This document shows positions 1-51,873 of a DNA stretch of 64,000 nucleotides, piece by piece. The first letter of the stretch is position 1. Every line of letters begins with the position of its first letter. This DNA comes from Clytia hemisphaerica (Eukaryota; Cnidaria; Hydrozoa; Leptothecata; Clytiidae). The notes under the pieces were generated by a model. It was not told the origin of the DNA. It was given only the letters and a program-made list of their open reading frames with translations, and did not search any database. The position numbers were made by a program, and so were the translations under genes. The stretch is taken from the NCBI GenBank assembly GCA_902728285.1, contig CACVBU010000758.1, positions 1,116,001 through 1,180,000 on the forward strand, in the 5' to 3' direction.

Positions 1-2478
1 ACAAAAGTTAGGGGGAAGAAACCAATGTCAATCAAGGATATCCCAAAGAACCTAACTAGAAGACAATGTGTATCAAAGGTGGCAGAATTGTATGACATCA
101 CAGGAAAGATAACACCCATCACAGCAGGTATGAAACTGGACCTACACAAACTTGTGGATAGAGGTCTTGGATGGGATGACAGAATTCCAGATGATTTCAA
201 ACCAATTTGGGAGTCCCATTTCGCTATGATGGAAGAAATTTCAAATGTGAGGTACAGAAGAGCTTGCATTCCAGAAGATGCTGCAAGCCTTGAACTAGAT
301 ACAATCGACACTGGTGATGCATCCAAGCATATTGCATGTGTTGCAATATATGCACGATTCAAAGAAAGTCTGGTGGATATTCAAGTCAACTGGTTTTCTC
401 GAGATCAAGGCTCGTACCAGTGGCACCACACAACCTCGAGCTGAACTATATGCTGCAACTCTGAACGCCCATACTGGTGAAGTTGTGAGAAGAGCATTTC
501 AAAAACATCATCAATCTTCACTAAAGCTAACAGACAGCCAAATTGTGCTTTTCTGGCTTCATAGTGACAAACAATTGAAACCCTATGTTCGCAACCGTGT
601 CAACGAAGTTCATCGCTTCACAAATCCTGATGACTGGAGGTTTGTCAAAAGTCAAGACATGATTGCTGATATCGGGACAAGAAAAGGTGTATCCTTGAAT
701 GAAATTTGTCAAGATTCAAAATGGTTCAATGGTTTTCCATGGATGAAAGAATCAGTGGAAACCTTCCCAACCAAGACTGTTAATCAAATCAAGCTCAATC
801 AGGATGAAGTCAAGGATATTGAGAGAGAGCAAATTATATCAACAATCAGTCCACAGAGCATGTTGTCAATGTCATACTTGTCAGAAGCTCAAACTTGCCA
901 TTTGTCATCATCAGCACAATCAATATCTGATCGATACAGTTTTTCAAAGTACATCATTGATCCTAACAAATATGGTTGGAAGAAAGCCACTTCAACTCTT
1001 GCTCTTGTGATCAAATTCCTGAAACTCAAGTCGTGTCTACCAAAACCATCTTCAAAGGATAACAACACGTTGGCACAGGAATATTTCTTTATGAAAGCAA
1101 CCCAAGAAGTGAAGAAATTTACACCATCAAAGAGATTGGCAAACATTTCATCTGAGAAAAATGGAATTCTTTACTACAACGAACGTATCCTTCCAATCGA
1201 AAAAATCACATCAACTGGAAAGCTCACCAATGCAATGTTTGACTTGTCCTCGTCAACCTTCATTGTCCCAGTTGTCGACAGATATTCGCCAATCGCTTAC
1301 AGTATTGTTAACTTCATTCACTGGCACCACCCGGTGGCTAAACACAAAGGAGTGGAAACAGTGTATCGCTACGTTCTACAGATCGCATATATCATCGATG
1401 GACGAGATCTAATTCGTACTATTAGAAGGAATTGTCAAAGATGCCGCTACCTGGCCAAGAAAGCAATCAACGTTGAAATGGGTCCAGTATCCCAACACAG
1501 TCTCAATATTGCACCACCATTTTATTCAACTCAAGTGGATCTATGTGGTCCATTCAGTGCATATTCAAGTTTCAATAAGCGAAAGAGTATAAAGATTTGG
1601 TTGGTGGTTTTTTGTTGTACAACAACATCAGCAACAAAATACATGTTATGGATGACTACAGTACACCATCATTCATCCTATCGGTTATCAGATTTTCAAG
1701 CAACGTTGGCTATCCCAAGTATTTGTTGCCAGATGAAGGCAGTCAATTAGTCAAAGGATGTGATTCTCTCCGACTCAACTTTAAGGATCTTCAAAACCAA
1801 CTTCATCGCGACACAATGATCGAATTTGAAGTATGTCCAGTTTCAGGTCATTTCATGCACGGAAAGGTAGAAAGGAAGATTCAAGAAATAAAGAAATCAA
1901 TCGAGATGAATTTCCACAACCATAAGCTTTTCTTAATGCAATGGGAAACTGTTGCAGCACAAGTTGGAAATACAATCAATGACATGCCACTTGCTCTTGC
2001 TGGACAGACTGATTACGAGATATCTGATGTCTTAACACCAAATCGTCTGCTACTGGGCAGAAATAACGAGAGAAGTCCAACCTTTCCTGTTGATGTTAGC
2101 ACAAAACCTGATAAATTCATCAGGTTGAATCAAGAGATATTTCAAGCGTGGTTCGAAACATGGCTCGTTGTCCATGTGCCACGGCTAATGCATCGACCAA
2201 AATGGTTCAAGAACGAATACGACATCAAAACCGGAGACATTGTCCTATTTGCAAAGCGTGAGAATGCACTCTCAAGCACATACCAATATGGAATGGTGAA
2301 AAGTGTCGATAAAAGTACAGATGGAAAGATTCGAAAGGTATTGGTGAAGTATCGAAATCATAGCGAAAATGTTGATCGTGAAACGTTTCGTGCAACTCGT
2401 GGCTTGATCATGATTCACCCGTATGATGAATTGAGTATAAGTGAAGAATTGGCATTTGCTGGTTGTATTAATGAATAA
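1..2478 (+). mobile_element. BEL/Pao LTR retrotransposon, 3' part of pol, frameshifted
   Basis: This is the downstream part of a retrotransposon polyprotein, open to the left window edge. The first frame (to about 385) has the Pao-type block after the reverse transcriptase (LTRRQCVSKVAELYD, then GLGWDD). A second frame (from about 390) carries the RNase H-like stretch (PRAELYAATLN) and the integrase zinc-binding region with paired His and CQRC near 1320-1445. The integrase core follows: first Asp in QVDLCGPF near 1535, second Asp in LPDEGSQL near 1730 and Glu in HGKVERKI near 1860. After the core, residues such as LTPNRLLLGR and the GDIVL segment are typical of BEL/Pao C-termini. The reading frame shifts near 390 and again near 1640, so this copy is dead unless those are sequencing errors. 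Gag, protease and most of RT lie outside the window. Family assignment is by recognised motifs. Confidence 0.88.
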
Positions 2479-3230
2479 ATTTTGCATCGTGTCTTTGGGC
2501 AGTGTAATTTGACCAATATTGAACTTATTGAACTGCAAAATTTACCAATATCTCAAGTTTGATCTCATTTTATCTTGAGTCTCTTCCATTTGTTTTTTGT
2601 GTCTATTCTGGTTTCTTTTAAGTGCATTTTTCAGTATTTTCAGTGAAAACCAGGTTTTCTGCATAATTTATGATAATTTATTTGTATTTTCTAGTTTATA
2701 TCAATTTTAGTTTGATAGCCAACTTGGTTCATCATATTTACATTTCCTAGCTATTTTTCATAATTTTAGTATTTATGGCCAACTTGGTTTAGATTTTCTA
2801 TAAATATGGCAGCTTGTCCACTTTCCTTCAGAGTTCAGTTGACATGTAGCACTCAGAGAGTCAACACCTCAGGACTTAGTCATTTTCTCAACATAAATTT
2901 CAAATAAACATAAGTCAATCAATGATAGTCTTCAAATCATTTTGACATTTTGGATTCTCCTTCACAGTTCTTTCACTCTGGCAAGCTGGTAAGCATTATT
3001 TATTATTTACTATTCAATATATTTCCTCTTGTTTACTTTAATGTATCCTCTCTTGTATGTATGATACCCTAGTCTCATATACTCTAGACTTTGTTTGATA
3101 TAGACTTAGTCTTAGAATTTATTCATTTTTGTTTTTTCATATAAACTAATTTTGGATCTTTGTATCTATTTAGTTTGAATCCTTGATTACAAATATACGT
3201 CAGTACGAGAATCCTCAGTGGTGAACTCCA
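2479..3230 (+). repeat. probable 3' LTR or 3' flank of the BEL/Pao element
   Basis: Non-coding AT-rich sequence directly after the pol stop codon, where a BEL/Pao element would have its 3' LTR. An AATAAA lies near 2904, followed by a T-rich stretch. I could not find the matching 5' LTR (outside the window) or a clear polypurine tract, so the LTR edges are not defined. Confidence 0.35.
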
Positions 3231-19000: not shown

Positions 19001-22000
19001 TCACATAGAGACTTTAGTTCTTCGTTCCATTTCTGCCAGTGTAACATCAGAATCCTTTGGAAATGTAAATGGGCCCTTAGCTTTCAAACAAGCGGGGTTT
19101 TTATCACCATACTTTGCTTCATAGTACATCATAACATAGAAAGTACACATTTCATCTTTGTGAGTTTGTCTGAAAATGGAGATAATTCAAAGTTACTCTC
19201 AGGGGCCTAACAAACTTTCTATCAGTTGTGGAAGGAGATATTCCAGACTTTAAAAACGTATTGAAAAGAATTTAACTTATTCAATTTCTCTCCAAGGGTA
19301 AAAAAACCAGGGACCCGACATCAGAAATCGAAACAATCAGCAATTAAAAATCCTTCTTTTCAAAGGGTCGAAATTTGTAAAAACATTTTGCGTTTGGTTG
19401 CGATTTTCGATTTTTGACTTGGCCATATCCACCAACTGGGAAATTCATTATCCTTGCACCCACACCGAACTCTCCATACTAGACAAAAAATATTCAACCG
19501 ATTTAAAACACAATTGTCGTTTTTCTTTACCCATGTTTTGTGATTCTGTTTCTTTCCATTGAGTTATACGTGCATTGTGCTACCTGAAAGTATCAAATGA
19601 GTAGATCATTGAATCTCTCATCTAGACTGCACTCCTTACCGAGACCTTGCCAAATAGACTGATCGTGAATTTGCTAATATATGAATTAATCAATTTAATA
19701 GGAGTGAAACTTGAAGAACACTTTAAAAAACACTCTGTTGTGTTGACTAAACTAACTTTCTTAGGTACCAGAATGGTATTATGAGCCGAAGCAAATGTCT
19801 TTGGTTGGAATAAAAAAGGAAGAAAATATACCACAATGTCACCATCTTGAATGTCCACTTCATTGTCCACTTTGTTGAAAGCCTGTAAAATAAATCATCA
19901 ATTCTTGACTGTAAACATTTTCCCAAGCAACACAGCGTTAAAGTTTCAGAATATTTCAAAGTGAAGATGCTTTCTTATGAGGTATAAGGGGTAATCAATT
20001 AGACCGAGATTTTTTGGAGGGGGGAGGGGGAGTGAGTGGAGTGGAGGGAGGGGAGTAGATTTTTCGCCTGTAGATTACTTCGATGGTTCTGAGCAAAAGC
20101 TTTAAATCTTTTTGTCTAACTCAAAGCCAAATTTGAGATAAACAAATTACAAGATTTTGACTTTTAGCAAGAAAACAATAGAATTTTGATGTAAGATCCG
20201 TGTAAATTTCAATTTTGATTTTTATTCATCCAAATTATCGTATTTCAACTTTTGGAAAGACTTTCGGTTTTGCTCAGAAAAATGGAAGGAGAATCTAAAG
20301 ACAAAAAAGTTCCCATCATCTGATTCAAGACTTTATATTCGAGGATCTCTGTAGTTCGAATGAATCTTGTCCCCATCAAAGCTCAAGTCCCGGGGGCAGA
20401 TGAGGGGTATGTGCGGATGGGGCCTCCAAAAACTGACCCTTAGAGAGACTGATTTTTGCTGAAAAGGTGACCCTTGAGAGACTTTGAAAGGTGAAAAAAC
20501 CGACCCTTACCGTCCGCACATACCCTAGGCCAGCACCAATATTTGCTTAAGTACCCCCTCCCCCGGGCTCGAGTTACAGAGGAAGGAAGAGAATTATTTC
20601 ACCTGTGGTCTTTGTGGATCACCTTTACCAATCAAGGTGTATTTTCCATCGCGCAATAAGTAACCGCTAATAACGGTTCCTGAAAAAATGAAAATATAAA
20701 TTTTGAAACTCAATCCGTGATACAAGGTTTTGGACACACTAACTAAAGTCTGTCCAGATATAATTGGCAGTGGAAACAAGAATGCCTGTAACTTTTGATA
20801 GTCAAATATAATTATGGAAATTTTTTTTGCTTGTTTTAGAGAATCAAAAGTGCTATATTGGAATGTATTTTTGGCTGAAAAATTCGCGATTTTAAGCGGT
20901 TAAATTTGCGATTGCAAAAATTGAGCTTTTTTTCTACTTATGCTATAACGTTCATTTTTACACCAGTGGTAGTTCAACCTTAGGTTAAGAAGTTTGTTAA
21001 ATTTCAAGGCAAACAGAAAAGTCCTTCGGAAGATATGGGACCCGAAATACCCCTTGGTAGCACTTTTCTGTGAAATATCGAATCTTATTACTAAAAACGG
21101 GGGTTATGTTATCTTTTTTGAACAGCGCAATTAAAAGTTGGAAAATGTTACGATTCCTGAAAATAATTCTATTCATTGTCACTTTTAATAAATCTTTTAA
21201 TTCATTTAATAACCGTTTTCCTTTTTATGTCGTCATTTAAAAAAATATTCTTTTTTAGCAAAACATTTTAAAACTTTTTCGTACAATTATTTTTAAATTG
21301 TACTCGTAATGAACCTATTTTGCCTACTAATAATTTTCAATTCAATAATATATAATGTATGCCTACTTTAATCTGAATTTTAGAATTTTTGACCAACTTG
21401 GTTTCATGAAAATTTAGCTCGTCAATTTATGGTACATTATATATTATTGAAAAAGTTAATTAACTCGTAAGATTAAGGTGCACCATAAATTGACGAGTTA
21501 ATCAACTCGTCAGTTTAAGGTGCACCATAAATTGACGAGTTAATTAACTCGTAAGATTATGGTGCACCATAAATTGACGAGTCAATTAACTCGTAAGATT
21601 AAGGTGCACCATAAATTGACAAGTTAAATTATCTACTTGTGACGTCATAATTTCCCATTTTTGACGTCACATTTAACGTAACTCGTGTTTTTTAACTCCG
21701 TGTTTTTAACTCGTGTTTTCCGAGCCTCGTTTGCCAGCTATCTTTCTTCCGTTAGAGTTTTTTATATGTATAATGATTCACTCGATTGGGACACACAGCG
21801 TGCGAAACTGCGCAAACAGCTGGTATGCTTTAAATGCATAACCAGGTTGGTCCATAAAAGTATCACTTGTTTTGTTTAAAAATGCTGTAAGCAAAATGAC
21901 CAGATTCTACTGTTTTTACTTATTCTAAGTAAGGATTTGAGGTAGAATCTGATCATTTTGTTTCTTGTTTTAAGAAAACTTTTACTTGTTCTAAGTAACG

Positions 22001-25000
22001 ATTTGAGGTAGAATCTGATTATTTTGTGTCTTGTTTTAAGAATATTTTTACTTATTCTAAGTAACGATTTGAGGTAGAATCTGATCATTTTGTGTCTCGT
22101 TTTAAGAATATTTTTACTTATTCTAAGTAACGATTTGAGGTAGAATCTATTCATTTTGTGTCTCGTTTTAAGAATATTTTTACTTATTCTAAGTAACGAT
22201 TTGAGGTAGAATCTATTCATTTTGTGTCTCGTTTTAAGAATATTTTTACTTATTCTAAGTAACGATTTGAGATAGAATCTGATCATTTTGTGTCTCGTTT
22301 TAAGAATATTTTTACTTATTCTAAGTAACGATTTGAGGTAGAATCTGATCATTTTGTGTCTCGTTTTAAGAATATTTTTACTTATTCTAAGTAACGATTT
22401 GAGGTAGAATCTGATCATTTTGTTTCTCGTTTTAAGAATATTTTTACTTATTCTAAGTAACGATTTGAGATAGAATCTGATCATTTTGTGTCTCGTTTTA
22501 AGAATATTTTTACTTATTCTAAGTAACGATTTGAGGTAGAATCTGATCATTTGGTGTCTCGTTTTAAGAATATTTTTACTTATTCTAAGTAACGATTTGA
22601 GATAGAATCTGATCATTTTGTGTCTTGTTTTAAGAATATTTTTACTTATTCTAAGTAACGATTTGAGGTAGAATCTGATCATTTTGTGTCTCGTTTTAAG
22701 AATATTTTTACTTATTCTATGCAACGATTTGAGGTAGAATCTGATCATTTTGTGTCTTGTTTTAAGAAAACTTTTACTTATTCTAAGTAACGATTTGAGG
22801 TAGAATCTGATCATTTTGTGTCTTGTTTTAAGAATATTTTTACTTATTCTAAGTAACGATTTGAGGTAGAATCTGATCATTTTGTGTCTCGTTTTAAGAA
22901 TATTTTTACTTATTCTAAGTAACGATTTGAGGTAGAATCTGATCATTTTGTGTCTCGTTTTAAGAATATTTTTACTTATTCTATGCAACGATTTGAGGTA
23001 GAATCTGATCATTTTGTGTCTTGTTTTAAGAATATTTTTACTTTTTGAAAATAGTTCCATTCATGTATGGAATATGCTGTGAAAATTTTAGAAAAACAGC
23101 TTAACTGAAACTGAAAATATTAAGCTTTAAAGGTATTTTTCTCCTATATATTTTGCAAAAAAATGACAGAATTTTCCGTTTTTGAGCTCAAGCTAATAGG
23201 AATGGAATTCCAAGATTTTTTGCTGTTTCTCATATTTAGAATTTTCGGTTTTATCAATGCTGATTCTAGGGCTCCAAAATACTGGTTGACCTTTAAGATG
23301 CTATATCTTTTACCCATCCTCTAAAGTCATAGATGTATCTGCATTTTCTGAACAGTATTAGGTGTAGAAAGTTTCCTATACCCCATTTCCATTATATATT
23401 TTCAATATCCAAGGAGCTAGAGTGAGTTTTATGCAATTTTTATCTAATTTTGGTGTTGAAATATTTCCTTCAGACGCAAATATGTTATTTTGAATCAAAA
23501 ACATGCTCATTTTTAAGCATGACTATCATTCTTTCAAAATAAACAAAAATTTTCTAATTCTGATAAATCTACAGTTCAGAATCCTCACTTTAATGACAAC
23601 CTACGTTTTGGGGGCCGTCTCCGTTTTGGGGGCCATATACAGTAACGATTAATTAATCAAACATTTCATTTTTATGGGGATATTTTCTTGATCGAAAGTT
23701 TACCGTAAGGTGAACTTCCTGTATTTATGTCCGCATTGAATTTATACCGGTTTCAATACTTGACCGGAAGCTCCTTTTACACCGTAAATAGGTAATGCAT
23801 AATACAGAGCTCTTCCGAATGTCACCGTTTTGTTCGTAAAATTATGCTCAGTCAACCCTAACATAAAGATTTAAATGGATTTCTGAAGATTAATTAGTTG
23901 AGACAAAAATTAATAGCTCTGGCTATCTATCATTTTTTGAAGCACAGCGTAATCTCTTCGATGCAAAAATTTCCACCATTTNCGAAGATTATTCTTTGCA
24001 TCGTACAACCATGTATGGTCGAAGTTTATTCTTTGCATCGTACAACCATGTATGGGCGGAGATTTATTCTTTGCATCGTACAACCATGTATGGGCGGAGA
24101 TTTATTCTTTGCATCGTACAACCATGTATGGGCGAAGGTTTATTCTTTGCATCGTACAACCATGTATGGGCGAAGGTTTATTCTTTGCATCGTACAACCA
24201 TGTATGGGCGGAGATTTATTCTTTGCATCGTACAACCATGTATGGGCGAAGGTTTGCGTTACTATTGTGACGGTTCCAGAACCTCAAATCAACACCTTCT
24301 GTTTTTTCATCATTGACTTTGATCAGAACTCCGTAATTTGGTGCACCTTCTGCCCAAGCCTTCATTGATCCAGTAACGTCGAACGCTTGCCAAGAACTAG
24401 GTGTCAAAGCGTAGATCGTGGTTTTCTTACATTCAGGCTCATTGACAGCATCACGCCCGAGATCCAAATACGGTGCGTACCAGGCACGGTGTGGGCAGGA
24501 TTGGCATCGGTATCTTGGTCGGGCGTAACTCTCTTGCCAGGATCGCTTGATACGATGAACATCGATTTCGTAATCGAGCCACGGCGCACTTGAAGGTTTA
24601 TGCCAACTGGCACGATGACGTCGCACGAAATACATGTAAACTCGGGCCCATTCAATCTTGCCAACGGGGCAAACACTTGCTGGGAGACTTTCGAATTGGA
24701 TGAGGGTTCTTTTGATTGGATATTGAGGATGTTTGCCAATGAGGTTCTGCCCGATGGAGATTCTATCATAAGAGACGCCATATCTTTCCAAGAAGGTATC
24801 TGCGACAGCATTCAACTTGTATAACGGTCCTCGGCCTTCGTCATGCTTGGTGTAGCAATGGACTTGGTAAAGTACCAACAGGCACAACACACCTTTCAGA
24901 TACATTCCTATAAAGATGAAAATAAAAATTGGATTTTATTTGAACAGCTTTTGTAGTATTTTTTGTGTTTTTTTTTGCAAAGCATTAATTGAACGGTTGT

Positions 25001-37000: not shown

Positions 37001-38005
37001 ATTTTCATTGCATAGCTTAACACTGTATCTGGCTGGGGAATGGGGAAAAATAAGATATTAAATTAACATTTTGTTGAAACAAATTTGGCACACTAATTTA
37101 CTTTGTGTTAACACGTCTTATTTCTATACCCCTGGTTTGTAACTCAAGTTTGCGAGGTGCAAGGTATGTTCGAACCTTGGAAAATCTTTAAGTCCTTTTA
37201 AACCTATTTTGCCTTTTTTTTCAAAGTGTCAACATCCCTACGCATTATCATATCCCAGCTGACACACAACGTTGTTTCGACGTTCATTTAACGTTGTATG
37301 GACGTTGTGAACGTTAGATAAACGTTGAAACAACGTCGTGTGCCAGCTGGGATACTAAAACGATGCTTGCGATAAACTGATTTAAAATACATTCGAAATT
37401 TTCAAAATTTCAAATCTTCATATCCCTACTCTTCTGGGGGGGGGGTCAATTTGCTATTTTTCGGAAAAAATCACCCCAATAGTAATAGTATTTTATAATG
37501 ACCCCCACCATTTTCCTGCAAAAGTGCTAAAACCTTCATTTTCCTAGAGAGGTTTGAGGTTTTTAGGAGAAACACTCAATAATCACTTAATATTGACCCC
37601 CCCCTATTTTATGACTTTTCTCCCTAAAGTACCAACCCACCCACCCCTATACTACAAGCATAGAAGAGTACATACTAGAATGTTCTCAAATTCTAATTGC
37701 GGGATTTCTGATATCTTGCAACCTCCTTGGGAGATTGTGAACCAATTCGAATGGCAATTGATTTAAACGACGTGATAAATGTCTGACTTCTAGCTTTTGA
37801 ATTCGAGCTGAAGAGAATTTAAATATTATCAACACAGACAACAAACCTTCTGTGGTGACACTCCTGGCATCACGATTTTATGTCGCTTCAAATCCGGTGA
37901 GTCATCGAAGTCTTCCATTGTATTGTCAACAAAATCCTCCACAAAATCAGCACTGACAACAAACCAACATAATGCAAAGATGACCAAGTTTGAAAACATC
38001 GCCAT
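19001..38005 (-). CDS. PHM: secreted monofunctional peptidylglycine alpha-hydroxylating monooxygenase
   Basis: This copper enzyme hydroxylates the alpha-carbon of C-terminal glycine in neuropeptide precursors, using ascorbate and oxygen, inside secretory granules. Twelve exons join to 348 codons: 38005-37847, 37032-36978, 36474-36387, 35914-35814, 35423-35340, 35085-35034, 34824-34757, 34123-34034, 20679-20603, 19882-19832, 19583-19531 and 19169-19001. The first exon encodes a signal peptide (hydrophobic residues 4-18). Copper ligands are all present: the His pair of AHHMMIF, His of LEVHYL, His-x-His of RVHSHK, and Met of DEMC. Two sites differ from the mammalian enzyme: Gln of VLQVHY (Gln170, rat numbering) is Glu, and Asn of DEMCN (Asn316) is Thr. 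The protein ends soon after DVTLAEMERR, with no PAL domain, so the product would need a separate PAL. Length matches the PHM-only enzyme of insects. The 13 kb intron between exons 8 and 9 holds another gene and a LINE. Confidence 0.93.
20388..20570. mobile_element. poly-G-ended MITE, short copy
   Basis: CCCGGGGGCAG at the left and CCCCCTCCCCCGGG at the right. Inside, GGGGTATGTGCGGA is answered by TCCGCACATACCCT, and ACTGACCCTTAGAGAG-type words repeat. It lies in a PHM intron. Confidence 0.7.
21455..21630. repeat. 42-bp palindromic minisatellite
   Basis: GGTGCACC recurs at about 21478, 21519, 21561 and 21603 (period 41-42). Each unit contains the near-palindrome GACGAGTTAATTAACTCGT followed by AGATTAAGGTGCACC. 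Four units, in the large PHM intron. Confidence 0.88.
21893..23045. repeat. 66-bp satellite, about 17 units
   Basis: Highly uniform tandem units of 66 bp (example start CTTATTCTAAGTAACGATTT). Because 66 is a multiple of three and the unit lacks stops in one minus-strand frame, it produces a 394-codon open frame with a 22-residue repeat. The frame has no other support as a gene. It lies in the large PHM intron. Confidence 0.95.
23983..24258. repeat. 37-bp minisatellite derived from the 3' end of the nested gene
   Basis: Seven units with a period of 37 (TCGTACAACCATG at 24001, 24038 and so on). The unit nearest the gene contains the last codons, stop codon and AATAAA of the DNRLRE-like gene at 24216-24905; the other units repeat them downstream. 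An undetermined base (N) lies at 23982, at the array's far edge. Confidence 0.93.
24216..24905 (-). CDS. secreted DNRLRE-domain-like protein, nested in PHM intron
   Basis: A 229-residue protein with a clear signal peptide (MYLKGVLCLLVLYQVHC). The body resembles DNRLRE-type beta-sandwich proteins: ISIGQN, RTLIQFE, then a strand run WARVYMYFVRR, VHRIKRSW, FDVTGSMKAWAEG, NYGVLIKV and DLRFWNRH near the C-terminus. Cysteines at CQSC (near residue 132) and CKK suggest disulfides in an extracellular protein. The ATG at 24905 follows a good acceptor (TTTATAG|GA), so an untranslated first exon probably lies upstream near 26579-26650. The stop codon overlaps an AATAAA, and both fall inside the first unit of a 37-bp minisatellite. 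The gene lies within a 13 kb intron of PHM on the same strand. The family call is from memory of the fold pattern and moderately sure; the function is unknown, perhaps matrix or cell-surface. Confidence 0.62.
   Translation of the reverse strand: MYLKGVLCLLVLYQVHCYTKHDEGRGPLYKLNAVADTFLERYGVSYDRISIGQNLIGKHPQYPIKRTLIQFESLPASVCPVGKIEWARVYMYFVRRHRASWHKPSSAPWLDYEIDVHRIKRSWQESYARPRYRCQSCPHRAWYAPYLDLGRDAVNEPECKKTTIYALTPSSWQAFDVTGSMKAWAEGAPNYGVLIKVNDEKTEGVDLRFWNRHNSNANLRPYMVVRCKE
25187..26562. mobile_element. composite MITE: outer element with two nested GGGGACACGG elements
   Basis: The outer ends are TACACGTTTTTTTTTT and its inverse (AAAAAAACGTGTA), with 'aagaacat..aggctga' words just inside each end. 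Inside lie two copies, 25262-25770 and 25850-26357 (each about 509 bp), of an element with ends TTAAGCTAAGGGGACACGG and the inverse CCGTGTCCCCGTAGCTTTA. Both inner copies have the same internal inverted repeats (GATTGCAACAAAA pairs, and an ATTCAAATCGATTTGAAT palindrome). The whole lies in the presumed first intron of the DNRLRE-like gene. Confidence 0.8.
26579..26680 (-). promoter_or_regulatory. putative core promoter and untranslated exon of the DNRLRE-like gene
   Basis: On the minus strand a TATAAAA box (plus 26674-26680) is followed after about 30 nt by an A-rich leader, which ends at a good splice donor (GTAAGTT, plus 26572-26578). The acceptor at 24908 just before the ATG would complete a 5' UTR intron. 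Inferred from spacing only. Confidence 0.4.
27069..27264. mobile_element. MITE, TTAAAGGTTTTGTT family, copy 2
   Basis: Same ends and internal words as the copy at 10209-10418, about 196 bp. It lies in the large PHM intron. Confidence 0.75.
27459..28228. mobile_element. 770-bp piggyBac-like MITE with TTAA flanks
   Basis: Both ends show TTAA followed by CCCTATT(G/A)GCCCC, then a long G run and GTAGAATCTACCAC; the right end is the inverse. TTAA target sites and CCCT-type termini are typical of piggyBac elements. The interior has no transposase and contains TGATGACGTCAT words. In the left end about 26 bp separate the two TIR blocks. Confidence 0.75.
28530..32510 (-). mobile_element. CR1-like non-LTR retrotransposon, nearly complete
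   Basis: The ORF starts at the ATG at 32492 and runs to 29173. Domains in order: a hydrophobic N-terminus (IVTLLLLVYFL), a 2A-like motif, a PHD finger of C4HC3 pattern (residues 79-123), an AP endonuclease domain (HINTQS near 168, TETWL near 195, GDFNID at 309-314, SDHD at 372-375), and a reverse transcriptase in the downstream part (DYSKAFDTVD, GVPQGSILGP, YADD). One frame change near 30555, in a run of five A, splits the ORF into 645 codons and a 440-codon RT part. The 3' end appears to be an A-rich tail near 28530-28575. The element lies in the same orientation as PHM inside its large intron. CR1/L2-group assignment rests on domain order and RT motifs. Confidence 0.88.
32265..32288 (-). 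other. 2A-like ribosome-skipping motif in the LINE ORF
   Basis: Residues 69-76 of the LINE ORF read DIESNPGP, which fits the 2A consensus D-(V/I)-E-x-N-P-G-P. The preceding residues (GTDILLSG) are of the kind seen upstream of active 2A sequences. It lies between the hydrophobic N-terminus and the PHD finger. Such motifs are documented in non-LTR elements of sea urchins and other animals. Activity here is inferred. Confidence 0.85.
34249..34522. mobile_element. MITE with AGTGGTCAAAG termini
   Basis: Left end CAGTGGTCAAAGCAGTTTTT with CTGTGAGACGGA just inside. The right end is the inverse, with TCCGTCTGAGACGGA and CTTTGATCACTG. About 274 bp, in a PHM intron between exons 7 and 8. Confidence 0.78.
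34601..34708. repeat. short inverted-repeat element with GAGGGGCT ends
   Basis: CTCGAGGGGCTTTGAGGGGCTA at the left is answered by TAGCCCCTCTAAGCCCCC at the right, about 108 bp. It lies in the same PHM intron as the MITE at 34249-34522. Confidence 0.6.
36655..36965. mobile_element. degraded poly-G-type MITE
   Basis: Contains CCTGGGGGTGGTATTCAGG at the left and CCGCACATACCGTCC with CCCCTCGCCCCGG at the right, like the poly-G family but with weaker ends. PHM intron 2. Confidence 0.5.
37251..37354. mobile_element. 104-bp MITE with CCCAGCTG termini and AACGTT repeats
   Basis: Ends TATCCCAGCTGACACACAAC and the inverse (GTGTGCCAGCTGGGATA). The interior is made of AACGTT / ACGTTG words in both directions, so the whole folds into one hairpin. 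PHM intron 1. Confidence 0.82.
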
Positions 38006-39370: not shown

Positions 39371-39535
39371 AGTAAATTACCAATTATCCTACAGTAAGGC
39401 ACAAAAAGGCCATATTAAGCTTCAAGTGATTATCAAATGCTAGATTTAGGTTGAATTTGGATCCTTATTTTAGGGTGACTTTAATCAAAAAGTTATAAAA
39501 TTCTTAACAACATCGTCTATGCTTGTTTACCCGAG

Positions 39536-39578
39536 CCGCACTGATGAGTCCTGGGAAGGACGAAACACGTGTCTGCGG
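39536..39578 (+). ncRNA. type I hammerhead ribozyme (minimal stem III)
   Basis: All conserved parts are present and in order: stem I 5' strand CCGCA, core CTGATGA (39541-39547), stem II GTCC / GGAC closing the loop TGGGAA, core GAAA (39562-39565), a very short palindromic stem III (ACACGTGT, with two- or three-pair arms and a tiny loop), cleavage-site C at 39573, and stem I 3' strand TGCGG. All core bases match the consensus. The tiny stem III is typical of ribozymes in animal retrozymes and Penelope-like elements, which tend to cleave as dimers. No Penelope reverse transcriptase is seen nearby. Confidence 0.9.
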
Positions 39579-40163
39579 ATAGATGTATCAGATCCTTATA
39601 TGAAAATGTGAATTAAAGTATTCCTGAATATTTCTCTCCTGTTCTGAGTACATTTTAATAAGATTAATTTGACATTATAATTAAATCACGGTGAAAATCT
39701 CTTCCTGCTGGGATCGAATAAAAATTTTTCTTTCCCAATAATTCTATTGCAATATTAATATTCTACTTAACTTAAATTGATGCATATTTCTTATAAAAAC
39801 TTTTCTAGTAGTTTTGAGGCCAATTTTGAAATATTTTTGAAGATGTGCTAGGGAAACTTTTGATTGTTTGTTTGCAGTAACGAAGAACGACTACAAATAA
39901 CATTTCCAAACTTAAAAAGTATAAGCATTTAAGCCTTAGTCTTTCAAAAGTTGGCATGGAGCACCCACAAAGGGTGATAACAATTAAATTTGATTTTTTA
40001 CGATACTGCAAAGACAGAAAGTCTCATTAATAGTCTCATTGTTTTCTCATTTTAGCGTCCCATGGGTATCATTTTAGATTTTTACACATTGTTTCTGTAA
40101 ATTTCGATTTTAGAATCCTCATTCTGTATTAGATTTTTACTCTGAAGATGACCTCTTGTGAGT

Positions 40164-41728: not shown

Positions 41729-51873
<10,145 letters not shown>

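Follow-up and report, generated by a model that had tools for sequence, protein, structure and literature searches.

The minimal type I hammerhead motif in a 64,000-nucleotide stretch of the Clytia hemisphaerica genome (contig CACVBU010000758.1, positions 1,116,001 to 1,180,000; here called the window and numbered from its first base) is a real motif in an ordinary copy, and what is informative is its family, a retrozyme variant with Penelope-type ribozymes. We favour, as the probable explanation, a retrozyme-like element that carries a Penelope-type minimal hammerhead and is copied by a reverse transcriptase starting inside the RNA, the window motif being the 3' end of a 5'-truncated copy. 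The extent of the element in the window (about 39507-39587) and its many relatives elsewhere were not visible to the author of an earlier note, which had been made from the window sequence alone.

The hammerhead motif

The motif occupies 39536-39578 on the forward strand, as do all elements listed here, and each of these can be read directly at the place where the earlier note had put it, in agreement with an alignment to the full Rfam model. Stem I is formed by CCGCA (39536-39540) and TGCGG (39574-39578), followed by the core CTGATGA (39541-39547), by stem II with GTCC (39548-39551), GGAC (39558-39561) and a TGGGAA loop (the stem also being seen in the model alignment), and by the core GAAA (39562-39565). 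Stem III, supported by direct reading and fold prediction, is the loopless palindrome ACACGTGT (39565-39572, that is A39565-CACGTG-T39572), and C17 is position 39573. The motif thus has the core CTGANGA..GAAA..NUH, three helices and the open stem I of a type I hammerhead, with stem III present only as a loopless palindrome, and self-cleavage is predicted to occur between C39573 and T39574 from alignment of the motif to the model. A 12-nt tail, TGCGGATAGATG (39574-39585), leads from the cleavage site to the usual 3' end of the element as defined by the 3' ends of aligned copies, and its end is presumed to be the start of reverse transcription.

Rfam Hammerhead_1 (RF00163) matched 39534-39580 over model positions 1-45 of 45 with 30.4 bits (E 1.4e-5 in a search of 501 bases), and the same motif was found with E 0.0018 when the whole window was searched. 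The Infernal check proposed in the earlier note thus returned a full-length match that stays below the gathering score of 34, and a scan of the window at that score gave 0 matches. That note had also called the motif canonical and minimal; the second term is justified but the first is not, since by eye nothing similar to the loop I-loop II contacts of canonical type I hammerheads, as described in PMC7229834, is seen beside the plain 5-bp stem I and the loopless stem III.

A bare core (CTGATGA..N6-30..CGAAA) is not rare: shuffling the window yields it 0.37 times on average, and it turns up in 31 of 100 shuffles. An accident can nevertheless be excluded for the window motif because of genome-wide pattern counts (417 Mb assembly, 951 contigs): the pattern CTGATGAGTCC-N4-9-GGACGAAA occurs 80 times and the 26-mer ACGAAACACGTGTCTGCGGATAGATG, the 3' half of the motif, at 173 places with at most 3 mismatches, versus 0 for the reversed control in both searches. 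By string count, about 53 of the 80 occurrences have loops like those of the window element's family (family 1), and 27 resemble a second family (family 2, see below).

Because ACACGTGT is a palindrome without a loop, a single molecule can hardly form stem III, and the best predicted monomer fold of the window motif is not a hammerhead. For two molecules, a fold of -35.9 kcal/mol is predicted, with an 8-bp stem III shared between them, as compared with -12.4 per monomer, so that the joint fold would be favoured by 11 kcal/mol over two monomer folds. This agrees, at the level of folds, with the earlier claim that the ribozyme works best as a dimer. When the six inner letters of stem III were shuffled, the mean dimer gain fell from -11.1 to -5.4, and 12 of 200 reorderings (which can include other palindromes or the original order) equalled the original. 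CACGTG is present in 31 of 44 parsed copies. Stem III is predicted to pair between two RNAs or two units, and the predicted dimer is the double-hammerhead form known from newt and viroid RNAs (PMC6155905).

A family of 5'-truncated copies with a common 3' end

A BLAST search with 241 bases around the motif yielded 40 scored places (of 245 candidates), namely the query itself and 39 others which match only its middle, over 65-114 bases. The copies read (49 segments, 52 loci) represent one non-coding family. The longest copies start with (TGCG)GATAGATGTATTACGC, repeating what also stands 3' of the hammerhead cleavage site at their 3' end (TGCGGATAGATG), and the unit is therefore 202 nt from cut site to cut site (copy L049). 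In a full copy, the unit is followed by a second occurrence of its first 12-13 nt. The GC content of the unit is 0.48 in L049 and 0.47-0.49 in five others. Across the 52 matching loci that were retrieved, uninterrupted stretches in common extend no more than about 139 bases upstream of the 3' block, leaving aside pairs from the same locus or from segmental duplicates.

When aligned to L049, the 49 distinct segments (47 when L052, a near-duplicate, and L089, a member of family 2, are left out) have in most cases a common 3' end, GATAGATG, which lies about 12 nt past the cut and reads GCGGATAGATG, then TA or flank. Their 5' ends are scattered (1, 1, 5, 10, 12, 13, 19, 25 and so on to 148), and the flanks differ. 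Two of the copies read start at the cleavage site, L049 with TGCGG and L043 with TGCAG, the latter with one extra C before it. Exact target-site duplications of at least 7 bp (7-16 bp) flank 21 of the 49 and are absent from 28, while re-pairing controls (n=200) gave a mean of 1.9% and a largest value of 13%; with mismatches allowed, a score of at least 10 was reached in 18 of 47, versus 2.2% of mispaired flanks. The flank as cut starts with TA in 25 of 47 cases, and TA also follows GATG in the unit, as if a primer had paired with the TA after GATG.

In the window, the 3' third of the element lies at 39507-39587 on the forward strand (BLAST and alignment to genomic copies, 93.8% to L049). This copy, about 80 nt long, corresponds to element positions 135-215, counted from the cleavage site in L049, and its last two bases (TA) may belong to the flank. 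It has no clear target-site duplication, as a 9-bp repeat 38 nt away was equalled by 148 of 2000 random pairs. It is a truncated remnant of a 5'-truncated insertion, which, having one hammerhead, should not by itself yield unit-length RNA. The suggestion in the earlier note of a solo retrozyme unit or remnant is thus borne out by the genomic copies, their shared 3' end and the Penelope-type palindromic stem III. Recent mobility, which it also raised, is plausible for the family, with 36 of 48 other rows 92-96% identical to L049.

A different arrangement is seen in locus L074 (1475-1667), where two family-1 hammerheads, both with the variant CCCAGCCCGCA, lie 135 bp apart with non-unit filler between them. 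The arrangement resembles a pair of linked, truncated copies or the outcome of a local duplication.

The 5' boundary at the cleavage site

The scattered 5' ends pile up to the cleavage site and then nearly stop: 33 places reach its last 14 nt and 3-4 cross it. Positions 36-55 are carried by 68 places in the genome (5 in the reversed control) and positions 9-27 by 33 (control 0), while the sequence of the cut site itself is matched within 3 mismatches at 8 places. Of the 33, 19 keep letters 9-11, and 6 of these reach the first four positions, three of them being tandem junctions. The density of 5' starts is thus 30-35 in positions 15-36, 14 in positions 10-14, 13 in positions 5-9, 3 in positions 1-4 and 3-4 beyond the cut, these values being pieced together from pattern counts and matched strings; the patterns differed in length and in the mismatches allowed, and flank letters can match by chance. 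The tandem copies that the earlier note had proposed to look for may be represented by three clear unit-to-unit junctions with 1 mismatch (on C495, C789 and C928, all among the 33) and a weaker one with 3 mismatches (C224:2663405), but the copies read are mostly single; six other rows of the junction search were taken, by eye, as copies with a chance unit-like flank.

If truncation were even, the rate of approximately 1.5 starts per nt seen at positions 15-36 should have left about 300 copies that end in the next unit, compared with the 3 or 4 that cross. With so few crossings, the RNA that was copied would mostly have ended at or within a few bases of the ribozyme cut, or else would have been a circle traversed once.

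The second of these is a variant of our preferred explanation, and both can hold together. Here, the reverse transcriptase would copy a closed 202-nt RNA for one lap and stop near its own start, so that the 5' boundary reflects the lap and not a cut end. We regard this as possible, if short of probable. Retrozyme circles are abundant in coral, mussel and axolotl according to PMC7229834, and the inferred starts are dense at positions 10-14 (14 of 33) and 5-9 (13 of 33). Only 12 nt separate the cut from the point where copying presumably starts, so that one lap would give the same 5' boundary, and for this reason family 1 does not distinguish a cut linear template from a circular one. However, the family-1 copies L049 and L043 reach position 1, which is beyond one lap.

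Family 2, which was brought in by an Rfam search of the genome, bears on this, its copies usually ending about 70 nt beyond the cut. It is unrelated to family 1 and has 300-bp units with the hammerhead CTGACGAGTCCCAATAAGGACGAAATGCATA, a similar layout, and a stem III that is also a loopless palindrome (ATGCAT). In 22 of 31 aligned loci (one of which, L035, is a family-1 locus, while the end reported for L022 is an alignment limit) the 3' end falls between unit positions 65 and 79, counted from the cut, whereas the 5' ends vary; other 3' ends are at 83 (L083), 57 (L033), 59 (L092), 39 (L089), 19 (L032), and elsewhere in L036 and L091. Nine of 19 places with positions 74-101 are without positions 54-81, and seven of the remaining ten lie inside known arrays as inner units; this count speaks for one or several laps of copying around a circular template, but was made by ungapped matching across a TATATA tract of changing length, where indels could mimic the result, and only L029 of the nine was read. 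L029 itself is close to exactly two laps.

Unlike family 1 with its mostly single copies, family 2 forms arrays. One of these (L022-L025, C226:201077-205024) has four family-2 hammerheads and seems to have entered in one event, as the 12-bp direct repeat TGTGGTATATAT stands, by eye, on both sides of it. The array is directly followed by a degenerate reverse transcriptase fragment (RVT_1 at E 0.011, under the cut-off).

A third hammerhead-like family, CTGATGAGCTCTGATATTGAGCGAAAC, accounts for 5 of 11 pattern places, with 5 close variants in addition. In L007, its hammerhead (1501-1527) is located about 0.9-1.1 kb upstream of open reading frames at 2430-3027 (+), which we take to carry Penelope-like reverse transcriptase motifs; the one frame scanned gave no Pfam match. 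The genome search with Rfam resulted in 65 matches, none over the cut-off, among the 74 candidates scored of 48,628; the rows are a sample that omits the window copy, and 11 of 14 control genomes also give sub-cut-off hammerhead matches, so that weak rows alone mean little.

A proposed life cycle

For family 1, the preferred explanation would operate as follows. A multi-unit copy would be transcribed, and the loopless palindromic stem III would let two hammerheads pair and cut the RNA between units, as the predicted fold suggests. A reverse transcriptase would be supplied in trans, most likely by a genomic GIY-YIG (Penelope-type) element. It would nick AT-rich DNA and, to judge from the common 3' end, begin synthesis at an internal site of the RNA about 12 nt downstream of the cut, then run upstream through the hammerhead and drop off anywhere up to the upstream cleavage site, which would account for the observed distribution of 5' ends. 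The products would be single-hammerhead copies, presumably dead, with duplications of 7-16 bp where these are clear (21 of 49), and the window copy would be one of these.

By analogy, a Penelope-type enzyme appears to us the most likely mover. GIY-YIG matches are present in the genome (150 scored of 401 candidates), several within open frames of 773-1006 aa, which, to the extent that a GIY-YIG match identifies them, are near the length of 830-842 aa given for Penelope frames in PMC3846280. An additional match (C760:2755057-2755260, minus strand) lies in an open frame of 2145 aa, far longer than the Penelope frames of that study. Of 100 listed family copies, one is within 10 kb of any of the 150 scored hits, with 0.7 expected. 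An autonomous Penelope parent next to the tandem copies was considered and rejected, as none of the 150 scored hits (of 401) is near the four junction places.

The enzyme of a Penelope element from Anolis (PAc) initiates reverse transcription at an internal position of its template, and this accounts for the 'tail' seen in genomic copies (PMC11167929). In the same report, the PAc hammerhead cleaved only with the protein present. The RNA used in vitro was mainly uncut, mutation of the hammerhead did not lower insertion relative to wild type, and RNA-seq reads with their start at the cut were absent. These last three results speak against a need for cleavage, and the 5' boundary of family 1 is a reason to re-examine that need in another system.

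We put forward, tentatively and as a weaker claim than the reading of the window copy, that minimal Penelope-type hammerheads define a second class of animal retrozymes, where a Penelope-type enzyme starts a fixed distance past the cut and in vivo cleavage sets the 5' end of the copied RNA, so that genomic copies would document how the element moves. If true, the scattered 'orphan' motifs of the minimal type in animal genomes would be a fossil record of germ-line ribozyme cleavage, represented here by at least two unrelated families. A fixed 3' end past the cut combined with rare crossing of the upstream cut would allow genome sequence to test where copying starts, and the same pattern could reveal whether the RNA serving as template is a substrate of the ribozyme.

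Relation to known elements

Metazoan non-LTR retrozymes are described as 150-450 bp repeats with known RNAs of 170-400 nt (Cervera & de la Pena 2020, PMC7229834). Family 1 resembles them in its short hammerhead unit, a GC content below 50%, target-site duplications of more than 4 bp and the lack of any visible LTR. It differs from that description in its minimal, loopless hammerhead which, by eye, has no loop I-loop II contacts, and from the tandem retrozymes in that the copies read are nearly all single and mostly 5'-truncated, with 3-4 junctions as against 173 motif matches. In coral, more than 6000 hammerheads have been reported, 1508 of them canonical and in tandem retrozymes, the rest resembling the minimal Penelope type (PMC7229834).

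With Penelope-like elements as described in PMC11167929 and PMC3846280, family 1 shares the minimal hammerhead, a unit the size of a pseudo-LTR (pLTR), 5' truncation and duplications near 10 bp, and its 3' end a short way past the cut is reminiscent of the Penelope 'tail'. Unlike those elements, the family-1 copies read have no reverse transcriptase or GIY-YIG frame alongside, and units join to units. The scattered minimal type I motifs in non-coding DNA of animal genomes, whose role is called a mystery in PMC7761336, are similar in kind, whereas here they are resolved into families whose 3' ends are defined and some of whose copies have duplications. Among titles and abstract openings in the literature, we found no element that is non-autonomous and combines a minimal hammerhead with fixed 3' ends and target-site duplications; the key papers on minimal hammerheads (Cervera & de la Pena 2014, Lunse 2017) may contain part of this. 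An exact search of viral contigs with one hammerhead pattern gave no match.

An alternative that we consider unlikely is that the 202-nt unit is the pLTR of an autonomous Penelope-like element, the scattered copies being its 5'-truncated insertions. Some minimal hammerheads are located in the pLTRs of Penelope elements (PMC7761336), the pLTRs of Adineta are of similar size (193-218 bp) and come with 5' truncation and duplications of 8-10 bp (PMC3846280), and long GIY-YIG frames are available in the genome. However, none of the 49 segments continues upstream into sequence shared beside the element, though six start at positions 1-13, and no alignment between copies passes through the element into common upstream DNA. 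Also, four copies (L060, L076, L086 and L095) abut other repeats which in other loci are located away from the element, and the cut-site junctions found are unit-to-unit.

It is still less likely, and in our view improbable, that family 1 is a SINE which acquired a hammerhead and is mobilised by a LINE. Size, variable 5' ends and target-site duplications would fit, and the schistosome elements Sm-alpha and Sj-alpha (PMC8490949, PMC6155905) are precedents for a short, SINE-like retroposed element with a type I hammerhead. Unlike these, family 1 has no tRNA-like head or pol III promoter as far as tRNA and A/B boxes were examined: no tRNA was found in the loci of six full or near-full copies, and the best matches in the L049 unit have 4 mismatches to the B box and 2 to the A box, so that a SINE with a tRNA-type pol III promoter was rejected. 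The copies printed also have no poly-A or simple-repeat tail.

A conserved ribozyme with a host function at the window locus, as all core bases are present, is extremely unlikely, because the core diverges like its neighbouring columns and the window copy belongs to a large set of similar insertions, most of them truncated. The earlier note had seen in the intact core a possible sign of selection, which is not supported: among 25 copies identified through sequence similarity, the 13 core columns vary by 3.4%, the other hammerhead columns by 3.9%, the rest of the 3' block by 4.0% and the body by 4.5% (core versus rest of block, permutation P 0.30). All 13 core letters are kept in 15 of the 25 copies, so that an intact core requires only moderate age, and copies seem to decay evenly after insertion.

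Other features of the window

As the earlier note had remarked, no Penelope reverse transcriptase is seen nearby, there being no Penelope frame among the 10 window ORFs scanned against Pfam (34 ORFs listed). A LINE reverse transcriptase is present at 42440-44476 (RVT_1), which is not a Penelope element; several of its relatives also carry PF03372, and the named ones among the best 120 of 289 relatives include Clytia hemisphaerica (55% identity over 98%), then Hydra vulgaris (35-39%). A GPCR-like ORF has three homologs. Two 45-nt arms, 89% complementary and 14 nt apart, form a palindromic MITE-like repeat at 37251-37354. A 461-bp tandem repeat (49381-50418, 2.2 copies, 93% matches) contains no hammerhead at Rfam E 5. 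Positions 1-2478 represent a BEL/Pao retrotransposon remnant, with Peptidase_A17 in its first ORF, and at 21913-23043 a 66-bp tandem repeat (17 copies, 96% matches) lies inside one open frame of 394 aa.
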